Of a stretch of DNA of 54,033 bases, positions 2,849-54,033 are shown one piece after another. The DNA is from Lachnospiraceae bacterium (GTDB lineage Bacteria; Bacillota; Clostridia; Lachnospirales; Lachnospiraceae): the NCBI GenBank assembly GCA_910575155.1, contig CAJTDX010000022.1, positions 1 through 54,033 on the forward strand. The letters run 5' to 3'. A program made the position numbers and the translations under genes. The notes beneath the pieces were generated by a model that was not told the origin of the DNA, made no database searches, and saw only the letters and a program-made list of their open reading frames with translations. Positions within the stretch are counted from its first letter, which is position 1. Every line of letters starts with the position of its first letter.

Positions 2849-3275
2849 CCTGACCCTCCTTTTCCTCCTGCCTCTTCACCATGCTCTTGAGTGCCTCAAT
2901 GAGCTTGGAGCACTGCTGATAGTCAAGCCACTCCACCGCACTGACCCCGAACATCTTCCGGCACATGCCATTGACCCTTGCAGGCTTGTCCCACCCAAGC
3001 CCCTGCGTGAGCTTGTATATCTTCTTCCTTTGGTTCTCCGTGGATGTGTTCCCTCCACGGTGCTTCCCACGCTCCGACTTCTTCACGGAGTCCTTCATGC
3101 TTCCAAGCACCCGGATGACCGTCTGAAGCTCCCGTTTGTTGAGAGCCTTAATGCTGTCCTTCCCCGTGTGTGCCTGTACAAGGAGGTGGAGCTCCTCATC
3201 CGTGAGCTTCAGCTCCGGGCTCTTTGCAATGCCCCACACTCTCTTGATGCTCGGCTGTGATGTGTTCCCTGCCAT
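2811..3275 (-). CDS. gp16-like (GemA, DUF1018-type) phage regulatory protein
   Basis: Mu gp16/GemA proteins are early phage proteins that affect host gene expression. Here the 154-residue product has the family pattern: an N-terminal region in which short helices hold a KSPELKLTDEELHLLVQ segment, then TENQRKKIYKLTQGLGWDKP, followed by a small Cys-containing domain (CRKMFGVSAVEWLDYQQCSKLIEAL). The ATG at 3275 is preceded by GAGGAGGGG and overlaps the upstream gene's end. It sits two genes downstream of the MuB homolog, comparable to its place in Mu-like phages. The family assignment is from memory of the motif order. Confidence 0.75.
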   Translation of the reverse strand: MAGNTSQPSIKRVWGIAKSPELKLTDEELHLLVQAHTGKDSIKALNKRELQTVIRVLGSMKDSVKKSERGKHRGGNTSTENQRKKIYKLTQGLGWDKPARVNGMCRKMFGVSAVEWLDYQQCSKLIEALKSMVKRQEEKEGQDAGLQADCNGQE

Positions 3276-3482: not shown

Positions 3483-4448
3483 CTACAGCATCATCATGTT
3501 GGATGCCTCGCTCACAATCTTCATGGTTATCCGGGTCTCGCCCTTCTGCTTCAGGATACGGAGCACGTTGTTGAGTGTCCTGTCCAACAGGCGGAAGCAT
3601 CCGCTCTGTGTGTTGGTTGCCCGGCTTATCATCTCGCCCATGGCTGCCTCTTCGACCTCATAGCCCTCAAGGTAGTCCGCCACCTCATTCTTGGACAGCC
3701 CCTTCAGCTTGTAGTAGAAGTCCATCCGGTTCGCAAAACGGGCAAGGTTGCCCTTCAGCTCCGTCTCAAGCCTCGGCTCCCCGGCTATGACAATGCCTAC
3801 ATCCGACTGGTCAAAGATGCCCCGGAGTATCTCCATCTTCTTCTGTGTGTACTTGTTGATGAGCTTGTCCGCCTCGTCAATGATGAGCAGGAAGCCCTCA
3901 TTGGTATTGAAAAACTCCCGGATACGGTTGACCCTCTTCCATATCGTTCCGCCATACCCTCTAGGGAGCCCTATCCCGTTCTCAATGGCTTCCACCAAGT
4001 CCCGGCAAGCCATGGTGTCATCACATTCAATGTATGCCACCCTCGGCAGCTCTGCATATTTCTTCAGGGCATGGGTCTTTCCCTGACCGGACTTCCCAAC
4101 GATTATCCCAAGCCCCATGTATTCCTGACACGCCTGACAAACTCCGATAGTCTGCACAAAGTCCCGGCTCTCAAAAAACTCCACCTTCTTTTTGAGGATG
4201 CCTGCCTTGCCTCCCTCCGGTGCCTGACCGCCTTCCATCCCTCCGGATGCCTCAAGGAACTCCCTGACCTTCTTTTCCAGTTCGGTAGGGTCACTTGCAT
4301 ACTTCCCGTTGAGGTATTGGCTAAGTGCCGCCCTTGAGTAGTTCATCTTGAGGGCTGCCTCCGCCTTGGTCATCTTCAGCTCCGCCAGTCTCTCGTTCAT
4401 CTGCTCCGCCAGTGTCTTCTCTGCTTTGTAGGTATTCAATGCTTCCAT
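3483..4448 (-). CDS. MuB-type AAA+ ATPase, transposition target-selection protein
   Basis: MuB binds DNA as ATP-dependent filaments, selects target DNA and activates the transposase. The 321-residue product has an N-terminal helix-turn-helix (residues about 15-60, KMTKAEAALKMNYSRAALSQYLNGK), as in MuB. The ATPase core follows: Walker A GKSGQGKT (118-125), Walker B FLLIIDEADK (D181/E182), and a sensor-like IVIAGEPRLE. The C-terminal helical part contains CFRLLDRTLNNVLRI. I chose the ATG at 4448 rather than 4478 because GGAAAGGAAGG lies about nine bases before it and the longer version adds only a short charged stretch. It is 53 bases after the transposase stop. Confidence 0.93.
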   Translation of the reverse strand: MEALNTYKAEKTLAEQMNERLAELKMTKAEAALKMNYSRAALSQYLNGKYASDPTELEKKVREFLEASGGMEGGQAPEGGKAGILKKKVEFFESRDFVQTIGVCQACQEYMGLGIIVGKSGQGKTHALKKYAELPRVAYIECDDTMACRDLVEAIENGIGLPRGYGGTIWKRVNRIREFFNTNEGFLLIIDEADKLINKYTQKKMEILRGIFDQSDVGIVIAGEPRLETELKGNLARFANRMDFYYKLKGLSKNEVADYLEGYEVEEAAMGEMISRATNTQSGCFRLLDRTLNNVLRILKQKGETRITMKIVSEASNMMML

Positions 4449-4501
4449 AATTACAACCTTCCTTTCCTTTTCCTTCACTAAAACCTAACCTTGTCTTCCT
4501 G

Positions 4502-6616
4502 TCATCCGCCTATCGCTCTAAGCTTCTTGAGTGCGTTCTCCGCCTGCCTGCTCATGTATTCGCTGTCACCTTCAGCCTCTTCCCTGCCTTCCGCCCGGAA
4601 GCCCTGCTGATAGGTTCTGTCCTTCGGGAGTGCTATGACCTTTGCCGCCTTCTCCTGCTTCTTGCCGCCTATCATCAGGTCAATTCCTCCCGTTGTCTCA
4701 TTAAAGCCAACATACTGCTCATTGAGCTCCTCAAACGGTCTCCTTGCCTCCTCAAGCCTTTCCCTGTCACGCTTCTGCTGCCTCTTCTGCATCTTCAGGT
4801 GTTCCTCAAGGGCTTTCTGCGTGACCTTCGGGGCTATCTGAAGGAGCTCCTGACAGTACGCCTCACAGATACGCTTGCCCTTTTGGTCAAAGACGTACAG
4901 GACAGCCATGTCATCCGGGTCATACTTGATGTCAACCTTCCGCCCGATATAGTCACACAGCTCATCAGAGCGGTACTCATATCCCCACTTGGTGATGCCT
5001 ATGTTGCGGACAAGCACGTTTTCTGACTTCATCATCAGCATGGTTGCATAGCTCTTAGGCGGTGCCGCCTTGAAGTACCTGTCCTCATTCATAAAGCAGT
5101 CATAGGGCTTTTTGTAGGTCTCCCCCATCTTCTTGAGCCCGGAGTGCTCCGTGTGCATGTAGACCGTTGTGAGCCACTCATGCCACTTCTCATAGAACTC
5201 TTCCAGTGTCAGGAGCTCTCCCCTCTCAAGCATCCGCTTGATGTCCTTCTCCACCTTGTCAGAGGTCTTGGAGCCCGTCAGCGTTCCCGTGTAGGACTTC
5301 ATCCAACGGGTGAACTTGTTGCAGACGGTACGGAAGAACCTCTCTATCTGACCCTTGCTCCATGGCTCATAGGGCAGTGCCCGGTGGTCATCCTTGATGC
5401 CTATGCTCTTGTAGAAGCCCTGTGTCTCATTGTCAAAGTTCAAGCCGCTCCGGTCATTCCGGTCTCTTCCCGTCATGGTCTTGGCTGTATAGTCCTTGCC
5501 ATTGTCTATGTAGAGGTACTCCGGAACCCCTCCCGGCTCTGAATAAATCATTTTGAGGAGGCTCTGCTTCAGGATGTCGGAGTTGGCATCCTTGCAGAGG
5601 ACATCACCCATGATGACCCTGCTCCGCATGTCCACCCATGCCGCCAAGTGCGGCTTGATTGCTATGACCTTGCCATTGGGCTGCTTATAGCTCACCCAAC
5701 AGTCAAAGGTATGCTCATCACCCATGACTATCTGCATCACCTGAAGCCCTTTGGTATCCCGGCTCCCCTTTACCATGACCTTGTTCTTGTATTCACGGGA
5801 GCCACGGGATGCAAGGAAGTAGGCGTTTCTCATGTTCTCATCCTCCATGAGGTAGTTGATATACCTCACCACCGTCTGATAGGACGGTATCTTCTCCCAT
5901 TCCGGCATCCCGGCTGTCAGGTTGATGTTGGCAATGGCTGTCAGCTTCTCATAGAGCATCTCACGGGTGCCTTGGTTCCGGGCAAAGTCCTCATTGAACC
6001 ATATATTTTTGATGACCTGTTTGACCTCCGGCTTGATGCTTGGGAAGCATCCGGTCTCTTTCGGCTTCCGGCACAGGCAGAGAACCTTGAAGAACTCATA
6101 CCCTGCCCCTTCCTCCTTCTGAAGCTTGTCCGCCCATGCGGATGCCTCAAGGTATGCCTTGGTGTATCGGTACAAAGTCCTCTGCCCCTTCCCAAGGTGC
6201 TTCTGTGCGAACTCTTCAGCGTACTTTGTCCGGTCTCCCTCGTCATACTGAAGGAACTTCCTGACCACGTTCCCAAGCTCAACAGCCTTGTAGTATCTCT
6301 CCTTGTAGTTTTCAATGTACCAGTCAATGTCCATGTTCACATACCATGGCACATCCGGCTTCTGCTCTGCCGCCTCCTGTCCTTCCGGAACTCCTTCCGT
6401 GAAGGATTTCAGCTTTTCCCTCTCCTTCCATGCGTTCCTTGCCTGTTTGGACAGTGAGGAGACCGCCACAAGCACCACGTCCCTTCCGCCTGTCTCTGAC
6501 TTCTCGGTCTTGGTGACAAAAGCGTCTTTCTTCCTCTGTGTCCGCCTTGCCATTGTGCTGTACGGAACGCCTTCCAGTTCCGCCGCTTCTCCCAATGTGA
6601 CATATGCTTCAGCCAA
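4502..6616 (-). CDS. MuA-type DDE transposase
   Basis: It cuts and joins phage ends in replicative transposition. An N-terminal winged-helix (about 1-75, LGEAAELEGVPYSTMARR) resembles the Mu internal-site binding domain. The catalytic triad is D305 (HTFD), D371 (YIDNGKD) and E425 (GQIERFF), spaced 66 and 54 residues apart, close to MuA (67 and 56). A beta-barrel domain and a basic C-terminal tail (KMQKRQQKRDRERLEE) follow, the latter expected to contact the MuB-like partner. Start: TTG at 6616 with AAGGAGGTGAGCGG before it, the same leader as in the upstream gene; the alternative ATG at 6634 overlaps the upstream stop as ATGA but has no good ribosome site. Confidence 0.95.
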   Translation of the reverse strand: MAEAYVTLGEAAELEGVPYSTMARRTQRKKDAFVTKTEKSETGGRDVVLVAVSSLSKQARNAWKEREKLKSFTEGVPEGQEAAEQKPDVPWYVNMDIDWYIENYKERYYKAVELGNVVRKFLQYDEGDRTKYAEEFAQKHLGKGQRTLYRYTKAYLEASAWADKLQKEEGAGYEFFKVLCLCRKPKETGCFPSIKPEVKQVIKNIWFNEDFARNQGTREMLYEKLTAIANINLTAGMPEWEKIPSYQTVVRYINYLMEDENMRNAYFLASRGSREYKNKVMVKGSRDTKGLQVMQIVMGDEHTFDCWVSYKQPNGKVIAIKPHLAAWVDMRSRVIMGDVLCKDANSDILKQSLLKMIYSEPGGVPEYLYIDNGKDYTAKTMTGRDRNDRSGLNFDNETQGFYKSIGIKDDHRALPYEPWSKGQIERFFRTVCNKFTRWMKSYTGTLTGSKTSDKVEKDIKRMLERGELLTLEEFYEKWHEWLTTVYMHTEHSGLKKMGETYKKPYDCFMNEDRYFKAAPPKSYATMLMMKSENVLVRNIGITKWGYEYRSDELCDYIGRKVDIKYDPDDMAVLYVFDQKGKRICEAYCQELLQIAPKVTQKALEEHLKMQKRQQKRDRERLEEARRPFEELNEQYVGFNETTGGIDLMIGGKKQEKAAKVIALPKDRTYQQGFRAEGREEAEGDSEYMSRQAENALKKLRAIGG

Positions 6617-7967: not shown

Positions 7968-8087
7968 CACAACCTACCTTTCTGCTTCCCTGCTTTTCCA
8001 ACAGTGCCTTCCTGATACCCTGAACCGGGTGACTTTCTTTGTGCCGGAGAGCTCCGGCTATTGAGATTTTCTTAGAAATTTGCTATG

Positions 8088-28102: not shown

Positions 28103-28327
28103 TGCTGTGGCATGATAGCAATGAAGCGTGAGGTTGCTGCTAAGAAAATAGCAGGTTTTCCGTGGAGCGAATGTCAAGTTAGGAAACTGGCGACAAGTCA
28201 CTGTATCACAACAAGAGTCTGCATAAGAGCAGAAACGGCGTGTGTGAAGCATATGACACACACGGAGAAGTGTACAGTCACCGCTTGTCGTACTGAGGTA
28301 AAGTGCGAAAAGGAGGCGACTTTTTTT
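28103..28327 (+). ncRNA. S10 operon leader RNA (putative regulatory)
   Basis: About 225 transcribed bases before rpsJ without a good gene. Several hairpins can be drawn, for example GTGTGTGAAGCATATGACACACAC (arms GTGTGT / ACACAC) and a stem in GCTGCTAAGAAAATAGCAG. In many bacteria the S10 leader mediates feedback by a ribosomal protein (L4 in gamma-proteobacteria). Regulation here is an inference from length and structure. Confidence 0.55.
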
Positions 28328-49652: not shown

Positions 49653-52031
49653 TTACTTAAATTCTGCTATGGTGACGCCGGAATCTCCTTCTCCAAACTC
49701 ACCCAGACGGAACGATTTGATATAGTTCAGCCGTTTTAAATGACTTTGTACCGCTTTGCGCAGAGCGCCTGTACCTTTGCCGTGAACAATCCGTACAGAA
49801 GACATGTGCGCCAGATAAGCGTCGTCGAGATATTTGTCTAACAGGGAGATGGCTTCGTCGGTGGTTTTGCCGATTAAATTGATTTCGGAAGAAACAGAAG
49901 CCGATTTTGACATTTTCAGCTTTCCGGCTCCGGTAGTTTTTCGTTTATTTCCCAGAGCGGGAGTATCTTCCAGCAGCACTAAATCCCGGATATTTACAAG
50001 CGAGCGCAAAATTCCCATCTGCACGTACAGATCCCCTTTGTCATTGGGCAGCGTGTGTACCGTGCCTTTTAAGTTCATGCTCAGCACTTTTACAGAATCC
50101 CCAATCCGGAGGTTTTTGGGAATTTTATGACCAGGCGTCCGCTCTTTTTTCTTTAGAGAAATGTTTTTCTCCAGCTCATTCATTTTGCCGCGGAGCTTGC
50201 TGCGTTCCTGTTCCATTTCTCTGGCGGTAACATTTACCTGGCCAAATTTATTGAAATTTTTAATGGTACGGTCTGCGATTTCCTTTGCTTCCCGCAGAAT
50301 GGCGTGGGCCTCCTCGGTTGCCTGGCGGATAATTTTTTCACGCTGGCTGTCCAAACGTTCCTGTTTTTCCTGAATTTTTTGTTTCAAAGCTTCTGTTTCC
50401 TGACGGTACTGCCGGGCTTCTAAGCGTTCCTGTTCGATGGAAATCCGGCTTGCTTCCAGATCTGAGATTAAGTCTTCAAAGCTTTCATCCTGCTTTGACA
50501 TCTGACTTTTGGCGCCGGCAATAATATCGTCGGGAAGCCCCAGTTTACCGGATATGGCAAACGCGTTGCTTTTGCCGGGAATACCGATCAGGAGACGGTA
50601 AGTGGGAGTCAGTGTTTCCACTGAAAATTCGCAGCAGGCATTTTCCACGCCTGGCGCAGATAAAGCGAATACCTTCAGTTCACTGTAATGTGTGGTTGCC
50701 ATAGTGCGAATACCATAGCTGTGTAGTTTTGACAAAATAGAAATAGCAAGGGCGGCGCCTTCTGTGGGATCAGTCCCTGCGCATAATTCGTCAAACAACA
50801 CCAGTGAATTTTCATTTACTTTATCCAAAATAGAAATAATATTTGTCATATGGGAAGAGAAAGTGCTGAGACTCTGCTCAATGCTCTGCTCATCCCCAAT
50901 GTCTGCAAAAACTTCTTCAAATACGGAAAGTTCCGAGCGGTCGTTTGCAGGAATATGAAGACCCGCCTGCCCCATAAGCGTAAACAATCCAACGGTCTTT
51001 AATGAGACTGTTTTTCCGCCGGTATTAGGACCGGTGATAATTAAAAGATCAAAGTCATTTCCCAGATGGATGTCAATGGGAACGACTTTGCGGCTGTCCA
51101 GTAAGGGATGGCGGCCTTTGCGGATTCGAATACGACGCTCCGTATTGAAAAGGGGAGCGGTTCCGTTATAGTCTTTTGCCAGCGAACCTTTGGCGAAAAT
51201 AAAGTCCAGTTCCGTGAGCACTTCATAATTATCTTTCAGATAGGGAATGTATTCTCCTGTCAGACTGCTTAAATTGGCAAGGATAACTTCGATCTCATCC
51301 TGTTCTTTTAAAAAGAGTTCTTTTAAGTCGTTATTTAATTTGACCACCGCCATTGGTTCGATGAACAGGGTGGAACCGGTGGAAGACTGATCGTGGATCA
51401 TACCAGGTACCTGGCTCTTTGCCTCTGCTTTTACCGGAAGACAATAGCGTCCGTTCCGCATAGTGATCACGGTATCCTGCAGATGAGTGCGGGTATCAGA
51501 GCTGTTTAACATAGTATTCATCTGACTGCGTATTTTGTCGTTGATGTTCTTAATGGAACGCCGGATATTTTTCAGATTTGCCGAGGCGTCATCGGCAATC
51601 TCATCTTCTGAGAGAATACATCTGCGGATTTCGTCAAGAAGCGGCGTCATAGGTTCAATGCGGGCGAACAGGCTGTCCAGAGAGTCCGATTTTACATCTT
51701 CCCGTTCATTGCGGGAATAAGCTTTTACCCGTTTTGAAACTTCTAAAAGCGACGCAACTTTTAAAAGCTCTTCCATGCCCAGAACCCCGCCGATTTCCAG
51801 ACGTTTCAGGGAGGCGCCGAGATTGTGGACGCCGGAAAAAGACAGAGAACCTTTCTGGTAAATTCTTGTTAATGCGTCTGAGGTCTGCTGCTGGGCAAGC
51901 CGGATTTCCGCAAGGTTTTGGGAAGGCGTTAAATGCCTGCAAAGCTCCCTGCCTGACTGGCAGGTGGCGTGTTCGCACAGCAGATCGATGATTTTATTAT
52001 ATTCTAAAGTGTGAAATACTTTTTTATTCAT
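49653..52031 (-). CDS. mutS2: MutS2 ATPase/endonuclease
   Basis: MutS2 is a MutS-like ATPase with an Smr nuclease domain; it is linked in the literature to suppression of recombination and rescue of collided ribosomes. 792 residues: MutS core and clamp (about 1-300), Walker A GPNTGGKT near 333-340, LVLFDELCAGTDP (Walker B), a coiled coil (about 515-620), and C-terminal Smr domain (about 718-792, RIVHGKGTGALR). First gene of the operon with the two-component system. Confidence 0.96.
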   Translation of the reverse strand: MNKKVFHTLEYNKIIDLLCEHATCQSGRELCRHLTPSQNLAEIRLAQQQTSDALTRIYQKGSLSFSGVHNLGASLKRLEIGGVLGMEELLKVASLLEVSKRVKAYSRNEREDVKSDSLDSLFARIEPMTPLLDEIRRCILSEDEIADDASANLKNIRRSIKNINDKIRSQMNTMLNSSDTRTHLQDTVITMRNGRYCLPVKAEAKSQVPGMIHDQSSTGSTLFIEPMAVVKLNNDLKELFLKEQDEIEVILANLSSLTGEYIPYLKDNYEVLTELDFIFAKGSLAKDYNGTAPLFNTERRIRIRKGRHPLLDSRKVVPIDIHLGNDFDLLIITGPNTGGKTVSLKTVGLFTLMGQAGLHIPANDRSELSVFEEVFADIGDEQSIEQSLSTFSSHMTNIISILDKVNENSLVLFDELCAGTDPTEGAALAISILSKLHSYGIRTMATTHYSELKVFALSAPGVENACCEFSVETLTPTYRLLIGIPGKSNAFAISGKLGLPDDIIAGAKSQMSKQDESFEDLISDLEASRISIEQERLEARQYRQETEALKQKIQEKQERLDSQREKIIRQATEEAHAILREAKEIADRTIKNFNKFGQVNVTAREMEQERSKLRGKMNELEKNISLKKKERTPGHKIPKNLRIGDSVKVLSMNLKGTVHTLPNDKGDLYVQMGILRSLVNIRDLVLLEDTPALGNKRKTTGAGKLKMSKSASVSSEINLIGKTTDEAISLLDKYLDDAYLAHMSSVRIVHGKGTGALRKAVQSHLKRLNYIKSFRLGEFGEGDSGVTIAEFK

Positions 52032-52061
52032 GATGATCGTCCTTATAATTATAGTGCCTTC

Positions 52062-52090
52062 ATTATATCGTATAAATAAAAATCTTGCAA
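52062..52090 (-). promoter_or_regulatory. promoter of mutS2 operon (shares -35 with the divergent promoter)
   Basis: Minus strand TTGCAA (52090-52085), 17 bases, TATAAT (52067-52062), about 30 bases before the start codon. Confidence 0.78.
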
Positions 52091-52113
52091 CAACAGCAGG
52101 AAAAACGTATAAT
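52085..52113 (+). promoter_or_regulatory. divergent promoter with no downstream gene
   Basis: TTGCAA (52085-52090), 17 bases (52091-52107), TATAAT (52108-52113). Because TTGCAA is its own reverse complement, one hexamer serves both directions. Downstream there is no gene until 52707, so it may make an RNA or once served a displaced gene. Confidence 0.65.
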
Positions 52114-52199
52114 AGAGAAAGAGACTGATATTCGGGGCATAAGTTGAAGAGGAATTCGCGCCAAAGCGTGCAATCTCCGGGGATTGAAGGGTCAGAGGA

Positions 52200-52450
52200 G
52201 TTGAAACAGTGGGCTTGCCCGCTTTGTTCTCTTATAGGAAAGACCGTGCTGCTGTAAAGCGTTAAAGTCTATGACTTTCCTATAAGATAAAAACATGGAT
52301 GCGCACTCGTGCGAATAGAAGATGTCACTGCGTGACCGCACTCGGCGCAGCAAAGTGTCCAAGCCCCTCATGAGTGAGGGGATAGGGGCGCTCCAGTGGG
52401 CTTGCCCGCTTTGTTCTTTTATAGGAAATTCCTTCGGATTCCCTATAAAC
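52200..52450. repeat. intergenic repeat cluster (REP/BIME-like)
   Basis: CAGTGGGCTTGCCCGCTTTG followed by TTCT(C/T)TTATAGGAAA occurs at about 52207-52240 and 52394-52427. Each has its own hairpin (AGTGGGC-TT-GCCCGCT). TTATAGGAAAG (52232-52242) matches CTTTCCTATAA (52275-52285), and the second unit ends with another CCTATAA. GCGCACTCGTGCG and CCCCTCA...TGAGGGG add further hairpins. This fills the gap between mutS2 and the IS110 gene. Confidence 0.6.
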
Positions 52451-52562
52451 TTCCATGCTTCGGCTCTTAGCACCACCATAAATGAAACAGGTTCATGTAT
52501 ACATTTATTTTTCTGTCATTTTCATGTATATTAATGATGACGGCAAAAATCGTTTTTTACCT

Positions 52563-52680
52563 GGACCTATAGTCCGCCTATAAACTTGATTTTCGGCTTC
52601 CTCATTTGTACCACCATCTGTCCAGCCGTATTCGGCAAAAGGACGTACAGTAAAATAATAACAGACAGGAAGCCGTGCCG
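52563..52680 (+). ncRNA. candidate IS110 bridge RNA region
   Basis: Known IS110-family elements of the IS621 type encode a structured RNA next to the recombinase gene that pairs with target and donor DNA. Here the region just before the recombinase has nested inverted repeats: CGGCTTCCT (52594-52602) with AGGAAGCCG (52667-52675); inside it GTAC...GTAC and GTCC...GGAC; and GCCG-TATT-CGGC at the centre. GGAC-CTATA-GTCC (52563-52575) forms another hairpin. The RNA's ends and promoter are not determined. Confidence 0.45.
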
Positions 52681-52706
52681 TAAATTTCATCCGTGGAGGT
52701 GCCAGT

Positions 52707-53942
52707 ATGGAAAAAGTTTACGACAAATGTTGTGGTATTGATGTGCATAAAAAACTCATTGTTGCCTGCTTTAAATGCGGCAAAAAGCAGGAAATCCGTC
52801 AGTTCGGTGCAACAACCAGGGAGCTGCTTGAACTGGCTGACTGGCTCAAAGAAGGCGGCTGCATGATGGCTGCTATGGAGAGCACAGCCTCCTATTGGAA
52901 GCCCCTGTATAACATCCTGGAATCCTGTGATTTGAATGCAATGGTGGTAAATGCCCGCCATATGAAAGCCGTCCCAGGGCGCAAAACCGATGTCAAGGAT
53001 GCGGAATGGATTGCTGAGCTTCTTCAGCACGGTCTTTTACAGGCCAGTTATATCCCGGACAAAGACCAGCGGGAACTAAGAGAACTGGTTCGCTACCGCA
53101 AAAGTCTTGTGGGAGAACGCAGCCGTGAACTCAACCGGCTCCAGAAGATGCTGGAAGGAGCCAACATCAAAATTTCCGGCACCATTACAGACATCAATGG
53201 TAAAAGTGCCAGGAACATCCTGGAACACATCCTCACAGGCAAACAAATTGATTCTGCAAAATATGATGTTCTTTATAAAAAGAAGATCATTGCGCATAAT
53301 TTGAAAGCCTCAAAAGAGCAGATCATTGATGACCTGAACGGAGTCATGTCTGACCTCCAGCGCAAGATGATGCGGATTCTTCTCAACCATCTGGACGAAC
53401 TCAATGCACATATCCATGAACTGGATGATGACATTGATAACTTTATGAAGCCGGAAGAAAAGCGGGCAGCAAAAGCAATTCAGGAAATCCCCGGAATAGG
53501 AGAAACCAGCGCTCAGGCAGTCATCTCTGTGATAGGAACGGACATGGGACGGTTTAAAACAGACGGTCATATCTGCGCGTGGGCAGGTCTGTGTCCGGGC
53601 AATAACGAAAGTGCAGACAGACGCAGGTCCGGGAAGACCAGAAAAGGCAACGCTCTCCTGCGGGAGACACTGGTTGTATGTGCCCATAGTGCGGTGAAAA
53701 ACAAAAGCACTTACTTTTCCGCCCAGTTTGCCCGGATCAGCGCCCACCGTGGAAAAAAGCGGGCATATGTTGCGGTGGCCCATTCCATGCTCATAGCAAT
53801 TTATCATATCATCAAAGACGGTGTTATTTACCAGGATTTAGGCGCCGATTATTACACCCGGTTTAACAGGGAACGTAAAATCAATGCATACCTGAAAAAG
53901 TTAAAAGCACTTGGCTGGGAAGCTCCTGTAGTTGCCGTATAA
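52707..53942 (+). CDS. IS110-family recombinase (DEDD transposase)
   Basis: 411 residues. N-terminal RuvC-like DEDD domain: D12 (CGIDVHKK), E58 (AAMESTASYW), D95 and D98 (KTDVKDAEW). C-terminal part: IPGIGETSAQAVISVIG (helix-hairpin-helix) and WAGLCPGNNESADRRRSGKT, which includes the serine region used in strand cutting. The GTGGAGG before the ATG is a ribosome binding site. It is complete. Confidence 0.95.
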   Translation: MEKVYDKCCGIDVHKKLIVACFKCGKKQEIRQFGATTRELLELADWLKEGGCMMAAMESTASYWKPLYNILESCDLNAMVVNARHMKAVPGRKTDVKDAEWIAELLQHGLLQASYIPDKDQRELRELVRYRKSLVGERSRELNRLQKMLEGANIKISGTITDINGKSARNILEHILTGKQIDSAKYDVLYKKKIIAHNLKASKEQIIDDLNGVMSDLQRKMMRILLNHLDELNAHIHELDDDIDNFMKPEEKRAAKAIQEIPGIGETSAQAVISVIGTDMGRFKTDGHICAWAGLCPGNNESADRRRSGKTRKGNALLRETLVVCAHSAVKNKSTYFSAQFARISAHRGKKRAYVAVAHSMLIAIYHIIKDGVIYQDLGADYYTRFNRERKINAYLKKLKALGWEAPVVAV

Positions 53943-54033
53943 GTTTTCCAGTTAGGTTCAAAAAAACCATTAAAGTTTGTATAGGGGTAGTCTGCGCTTT
54001 TTTGGCCACTCAGAAGTTAATGTTTCACAGTAA

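Follow-up and report, generated by a model that had tools for sequence, protein, structure and literature searches.

A predicted bridge RNA with apparently permuted guide order in an IS110-family element of a Lachnospiraceae bacterium

According to the text of Hiraizumi 2024 (PMC11208158), the loop layout of the IS621 RNA is a stem, a left guide, a stem-loop and a right guide. The text of Siddiquee 2024 (PMC11187229) describes opposite guide orders for IS1111-type elements and for one IS110 element, ISEc21: in ISEc21, whose order is that of IS621, the bottom-strand match comes first in the 5' to 3' direction, whereas in the IS1111-type elements examined it is the top-strand match that does so. 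The same text mentions exceptions to the rule on where the RNA is located, and gives the usual extensions outside the IS1111 subterminal inverted repeats as 7 bp on the left and 3 bp on the right; the repeats themselves are put at 7-17 bp in the text of Durrant 2024 (PMC11208160). REP sequences have been reported as targets of IS110 elements (Durrant 2024, PMC11208160), and ISPa11 is likewise described as targeting REP sequences (Siddiquee 2024, PMC11187229). Here, we describe an IS110-family element in a Lachnospiraceae bacterium (positions 52450-54031 of the analysed DNA) and, in its left end just upstream of the recombinase gene, what is with high probability the coding sequence of a bridge RNA, some 146 nt long. 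To judge by the sequence evidence, this is a bona fide bridge RNA of a Lachnospiraceae-type IS110 element, with a permuted order of its guides.

The element, its recombinase and its target

The DNA analysed, referred to below as the window, is a whole contig (C22) of 54,033 bases, which ends at the presumed right core of the element. The left end runs from 52450, directly after the presumed left core, and the right end stops at 54031. The left non-coding end (LE; 52450..52706, + strand) starts with the right-donor sequence CTTCCATG, as defined from the junctions of seven copies, while the right non-coding end (RE; 53943..54031, +) terminates in the left-donor sequence CACAGT, as seen at right junctions in the genome. 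Comparing the lengths of the A-runs at left and right junctions with those at unoccupied sites, we infer AA as the core dinucleotide at both junctions, that is, at 52448..52449 (+) on the left and at 54032..54033 (+) on the right, where the contig stops.

Between the two ends lies a gene for an IS110-family DEDD recombinase of 411 aa (52707..53942, +), which matches the Pfam families DEDD_Tnp_IS110 (2.6e-34) and Transposase_20 (2.2e-20) as well as NCBIfam NF033542, 'IS110 family RNA-guided transposase' (1.8e-83), and whose best matches among solved structures in the PDB are IS621 (2e-16) and ISCro4 (8e-16). Candidate recombinase residues, assigned from the alignment to these structure hits together with inference, are D12, E58, D95, D98 and S302, and the GxxPxxxxSG motif given in the text of Siddiquee 2024 (PMC11187229) reads GxxPxxxxSA in the window recombinase.

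The LE arm TGAAACA (52483..52489, +) and the RE arm TGTTTCA (54021..54027, +) form a subterminal inverted repeat, identified without a chance control. An exact inverted match of 6-9 bp, likewise without a chance control, is found in all 48 elements with both ends placed; it is of the GAAA type in 43 of the 48, and it sits well away from the left end. A second hairpin, of the TGCC..GGCA type (52455-52479), lies between the right-donor sequence and the subterminal repeat; it is weak in the window itself and shows compensating changes between elements by eye. It is followed by a CACCACCA motif in common with the donor loop of the RNA, a likeness noted without a control; judged by eye, this sense match between left end and donor loop shows no covariation, and we do not include it among the guides. 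At the other end, a motif around GGGGTAGTCTGCGCTTTTTTGGC (window 53970-54010) is present in many of the loci listed.

The same genome contains 22 stretches matching the element, many of them at contig ends, and among these are seven distinct left junctions. Its identical copies suggest that the element has recently been active. The closest named relatives, among 80 fetched loci, are mostly Lachnospiraceae. Older, decayed copies are also found in the genome, namely L002 on contig C29 of G000, in which the RNA is kept (166 bits), and L004 on contig C11, which gives no match to the covariance model described below. Elsewhere, in L029, the recombinase match covers residues 1-411 and the bridge RNA is internally deleted (2931-3000), which makes it a natural RNA-less derivative, and in L101 a second RNA match (4437-4564) comes soon after the first element, whose right flank starts like a left end, as in tandem copies.

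The left half of the occupied target, TATAGGAAATTCCTTCGGATTCCCTATA (52420..52447, +), is the 3' foot of a dispersed palindromic repeat, an assignment based on its recurrence at junctions and on unoccupied copies of the repeat. With at most one mismatch, the same left half precedes five of the seven distinct left junctions of the genome, and the right half of the repeat follows several right junctions. The pattern CCTATAA-N(0-4)-ATAAAAA occurs 24 times in the genome, compared with once for the reversed control pattern, and by count 12 of the 24 matches are unoccupied copies of the palindromic repeat type TTATAGGAAATTCCTTCGGATTCCCTATAAAATAAAAAACAATGATCGCACTGCG, which are paralogous rather than orthologous empty sites. 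The repeat halves at the junctions, taken together with the unoccupied repeat copies, thus indicate that the element targets the foot of a dispersed repeat. A family of such palindromic repeats is present at window 52222-52440. A query covering 51900-52470 was matched in 21 of 21 same-genus genomes searched, the genome itself included, with at least 27 matches in 12 of them, and among the matches listed most lie at the repeat.

Structure and conservation of the predicted RNA

A possible bridge RNA just upstream of the recombinase had been proposed in the initial annotation, at 52563-52706, on account of nested inverted repeats. All of these repeats are present where they had been placed: CGGCTTCCT (52594-52602) with AGGAAGCCG (52667-52675), GTCC (52620-52623) with GGAC (52641-52644), and in the centre a hairpin of GCCG (52625-52628), TATT and CGGC (52633-52636). 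They also exceed chance, in that the RNA at 52541-52686 folds with -40.2 kcal/mol (z -3.9), a value that none of 200 shuffles equalled. The interval first proposed folds less well (z -1.9, 10/200 shuffles as good); it misses the start of the RNA, which we place about 23 nt further upstream, and so omits the 5' strands of two stems (P1, 52540-52545, and P2, 52547-52552) along with the right-target guide. The predicted extent of the bridge RNA is 52540..52685 (+), about 146 nt, on the basis of its fold (z -3.9), of covariation and of a covariance-model score of 176.5 bits, the window being in the training set of that model.

In the predicted architecture, an outer stem, P1, encloses a target loop, consisting of P2 and a hairpin, and a donor loop, consisting of P3, P4 and P5. 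The 5' strand of P1 (52540..52545, +) pairs with 52676-52681, with 93.5% of the cells of the alignment paired. The target loop extends over approximately 52547-52592: the 5' strand of P2 (52547..52552, +) has its partner at 52587-52592 (96.3% paired, two pairs changed on both sides), and the apical hairpin lies at 52563..52575 (+; 89.6% paired). The nested repeats seen earlier make up the donor-binding half. Its stem P3 (5' strand 52595..52601, +; partner 52668-52674) shows changes on both sides in five of its seven pairs, varying from CTTCC/GGAAG to TACTC/GAGTA and other types with the partner strand following, while the apical stems P4 (GTCC/GGAC) and P5 (GCCG/CGGC), at 52620..52644 (+), are paired in 99.3% and 84.3% of cells, respectively, with no pair of P4 changed on both sides.

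These figures come from an alignment (A1) of 36 upstream regions, the window plus 35 of the 80 fetched loci, which excludes near-identical copies from strain 28-4, loci whose upstream region is incomplete, L029 and most of the distant loci, and from a hand-written structure of 31 pairs that combines the alignment with the fold of the window. Over the 36 sequences, 93.7% of cells are paired, as opposed to 86.8% after shuffling and 30-44% when the structure is slid by 1-3 columns. The covariation expected on homologs for the initial reading is borne out, with 14 of the 31 pairs changed on both sides compared with 7.7 in shuffles. Four of five measures were reached by none of 500 shuffles, and the fifth, which counts further pair types, by 6 of 500. 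RNAalifold on its own recovers 22 pairs, 8 of them changed on both sides, and lacks the innermost stem P5.

With a covariance model (R1), 37 of 68 sources give a match at E <= 0.01; five of the 37 served to train the model, and some others are nearly the same as these training sequences. Scores are strong in near relatives and weak in several Firmicutes loci at about 50% identity. Of the 31 sources missed at this threshold, ten lie outside the 21 family loci at 41% identity or less, in none of which the RNA was found by the model. Stems not kept alongside a conserved recombinase would have told against the initial reading; the 37 matches support it, though not for those 21 loci. Rfam at gathering scores gives two matches in the window, both away from the RNA region; a RAGATH-25 RNA (8016-8065, -) and an S10-Clostridia ribosomal leader (28113-28196, +) are found in the window.

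A putative internal promoter at 52504..52532 (+) consists of a weak -35 box, TTTATT (3/6), a spacing of 17 nt and a -10 box, TATATT (5/6). A hexamer resembling a -10 box in five or six of its six positions stands 7-9 nt before P1 (column 25) in 36 of 36 sequences, whereas any other distance accounts for three of 36 at most. The position of this box suggests that the RNA likely starts at about 52540. The -10 box is absent from the output of a simple promoter scan and emerged from the alignment.

Guide segments in the two loops

To look for guides, each column of the RNA was compared with each flank position on both strands, using flanks permuted among elements as the reference. Element ends were placed by pattern, with manual resetting of the left end in 15 loci and of the right end in L092; six loci (L061, L063, L064, L070, L073 and L078) were used without a left end. 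On the left-target side (n 33), the strongest diagonals are in sense orientation at columns 62-72, with z up to 10.5 (0/400 permutations), and the top diagonal points to a left-target guide (LTG) CCTATAAA at 52577..52584 (+). This segment matches the genome's own junctions, with 8/8 positions at six of the seven left junctions and 7/8 at the seventh. Across elements, the LTG matches its own target at 6.26 of 9 positions, compared with 3.94 of 9 in non-cognate pairs (n 31; this 9-base count omits two rows that contain unknown bases). With flank exchange confined to clusters of RNAs linked at 80% or 85% identity, the match was reached in 0 of 5000 permutations. Because the match holds under such within-cluster exchange, the signal is not mere relatedness, with the proviso that permutations do not wholly remove relatedness or base composition. 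At fixed register the LTG is poor in some elements, with 2/9 in L049 and 3/9 in L040; in L026 and L051 (1/9 each) and in the window (4/9), the pattern resembles a one-base shift.

On the left-donor side (n 32), the scan gives a sense signal at columns 164-174 (z 7.7; match 0.97 compared with 0.84 shuffled), which points to a left-donor guide (LDG) ACAGTAA at 52647..52653 (+). The segment is identical to the right end of the element, and the two covary. Target and donor guides differ in variability, the former having 0.29 bits (columns 65-69) and the latter 1.67 bits. The prediction that loop segments would match insertion flanks and element ends is thereby confirmed for the LTG and the LDG, and with the covarying stems this upholds the bridge-RNA reading at the level of sequence.

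These matches bear directly on whether the RNA could instead be a cis-acting leader of the recombinase mRNA, controlling translation or transcription and containing no guide. The RNA does sit directly upstream of GGAGG and a start codon and may share a transcript with the recombinase, but a leader gives no reason for loops that match the left flank and the right end, each changing with its partner. By covariation this explanation is strongly disfavoured, and we consider it very improbable. The matches might also be remnants of homologous sequence common to flank and element, such as a duplication would leave, rather than functional guides. By pattern the left targets of L056 and L094 resemble an IS110 right end, as that of L026 does by eye; the targets of L056 and L094 come without the upstream right-end motif. 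The right flanks of L053, L076 and L101 resemble a left end. Against a duplication, the matches occupy set places within the loops of the RNA, and where closely similar RNAs diverge in the guide, the flank diverges with it: the near-identical RNAs of L030 and L048 have different bases at guide position 5, and the two targets show the same difference there, among others. We give this explanation hardly any credence, even less than the leader, and retain the reading of the loop segments as guides.

The right-target guide (RTG) is predicted at 52552..52562 (+), antisense to AA-ATAAAAAAC, on the basis of covariation and matches to right flanks. Its reverse complement, AGGTAAAAAAC, was compared with the core plus right flank at 12 right flanks of this genome: three flanks match at 9/11 positions, one at 7/11, six at 6/11 and two at 5/11. 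In several of the six, the same TAAAAAAC is present but shifted by one base. In a test that allows for shifts, the match to the own flank is 4.96 compared with 3.97 (0/10000, n 28), and single cases show long right-target matches (L066, L072, L075 and L097). In the right-target scan (n 28), antisense signals appear at columns 39-48 with z 2.6-3.0, and the best diagonal of this main set belongs to another region of the RNA, columns 113-118 (z 3.3); when core and right target are taken together, a sense diagonal at columns 171-176 comes first (z 3.6).

A distant set of 18 separate relatives at about 50% identity was aligned separately, dropping L064, L070 and L073, in which the left junction could not be placed, and leaving out L083-L086, L091, L093, L100 and L102 of the same identity range. 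The top diagonals in this set have z 6.5 for the left target, 6.0 for the left donor and 3.9 for core plus right target, the last in antisense with a sense diagonal of z 3.7 close behind. Such sense diagonals plausibly arise because the query takes in the last bases of the right end. The shift-allowing test for the RTG gives 4.44 compared with 3.30 (1/10000, n 18), with the segment cut by patterns, including variants for single loci. Along the RNA, RTG (columns 63-71), LTG (88-99) and LDG (158-168) come in the same order as in the main set. Overall, the sequence evidence argues strongly for the LTG and the LDG, and more weakly, at a moderate level, for the RTG. No right-donor guide (RDG) was found in the main set (n 33; scattered diagonals up to z 4.3) or in the distant set; the right-donor sequence varies little, so that covariation could miss such a guide. 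Motifs resembling box C/D, with CTGA after the LTG, were followed as a lead from the text on TIGR-Tas (PMC12045711) and dropped, as the TGA pairs in P2.

Taken together, these findings suggest a model in which the RNA would allow the recombinase to deliver the circularised element to the foot of the dispersed palindromic repeat, with recombination at the putative AA core. We infer the transcription, binding, circle and strand chemistry of this model, the strand chemistry being taken from the text of Hiraizumi 2024 (PMC11208158) on IS621.

Guide order compared with known systems

In the target loop of the window RNA, the right guide comes first, then the stem-loop and then the left guide; in the donor loop, the stem-loop precedes the left guide. 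The bottom-strand guide would thus occupy the 3' side of each loop, whereas the published text on IS621 places it on the 5' side; with the RNA still upstream of the gene, both loops look circularly permuted relative to IS621. The order could have been misread, the RNA being an ordinary IS621-type bridge RNA with the LTG 5' and the RTG 3' in each loop. An RNA in the left end is indeed the IS110-type layout, and the RTG gives the weakest of the three signals, outranked by another right-target diagonal in the main set. On the other hand, LTG and LDG each lie 3' of the hairpin of their loop, the apical one in the target loop, and the antisense right-target signal is found 5' of the LTG in the main and the distant set alike and ranks first for core plus right target in the latter. 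We therefore regard a misreading as unlikely, and compare the RNA below on the basis of the permuted order.

With IS621 and ISCro4, the latter compared as a protein match only, the element has in common a recombinase with DEDD and Transposase_20 domains. As in the texts on IS621, the RNA lies in the left end upstream of the gene and has two loops, and the target guide is variable and the donor guide conserved (Durrant 2024, PMC11208160). An LTG of 8 nt that includes the core is a further likeness to IS621. The likeness to IS621-type elements in the initial annotation therefore stands for the location of the RNA but not for its guide order, which is reversed in both loops. Further differences are that the outer stem encloses both loops here, whereas IS621 is described with a separate 5' stem-loop (PMC11208160); that the presumed core is AA rather than CT (PMC11208158); that the recombinase has 411 aa rather than 328; that the -10 box lies inside the left end, whereas the IS621 promoter is formed across the circle junction (PMC11208160); that the subterminal repeat has 6-9 bp rather than 2-3 (PMC11208160); and that no RDG was found in the window element. 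The ISEc21 seekRNA of the IS110 group is likewise described as upstream of the gene, with the strand order of the guides reversed relative to the window RNA.

It is with the seekRNAs of IS1111-type elements (ISEc11, ISPa11 and ISKpn4), as given in the text of PMC11187229, that the order agrees, the top-strand match preceding the bottom-strand match, and these elements have subterminal inverted repeats, which those of the window may resemble, ISPa11 in addition targeting REP sequences. In contrast to the window, their RNA lies downstream of the gene, their left repeat arm is 7 bp inside the end rather than about 33 bp, and their recombinases have 330-350 aa rather than 411 (PMC11187229). An IS1111 element had been suspected from the inverted repeats near the ends; the position of the RNA and the short right end speak against it, as only 89 bp separate the gene from the right core and the covariance model has no match there in the window. 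An ISArsp3 family element on a Pseudarthrobacter plasmid (L167, 37.5% identical) has candidates for RTG, LTG and LDG at 817, 854 and 922, in the same order as in the window; its RTG match begins immediately beyond the right end. The same search gave ten further antisense 8/9 matches, and this single copy is only suggestive of the order. In the text, figures aside, of PMC11208160, PMC11187229 and PMC11208158, we found no upstream RNA with the IS1111 guide order.

One could speculate, and we do so tentatively, that a large branch of IS110, from Lachnospiraceae to Paenibacillus and Alicyclobacillus and perhaps Actinomycetota, has circularly permuted bridge RNAs, with both loops re-opened so that the top-strand guide comes first, with the RNA made from its own internal promoter, and with the right donor side recognised via a DNA hairpin and the subterminal repeat rather than via an RNA guide. 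As the loops are pseudo-symmetric in the IS621 structure (text of PMC11208158), a swap of basal and apical stem could keep the geometry, and a joint permutation of both loops seems to fit this pseudo-symmetry. For a Firmicutes recombinase that has many insertions in nature, the locus also supplies predicted guides together with target and donor sequences that could be used as they stand. The combination of the IS110 location and the IS1111 order in one branch would mean that the order of the guides and the location of the RNA, which are opposed between the IS1111-type elements and ISEc21 in the text of Siddiquee 2024, are separable.
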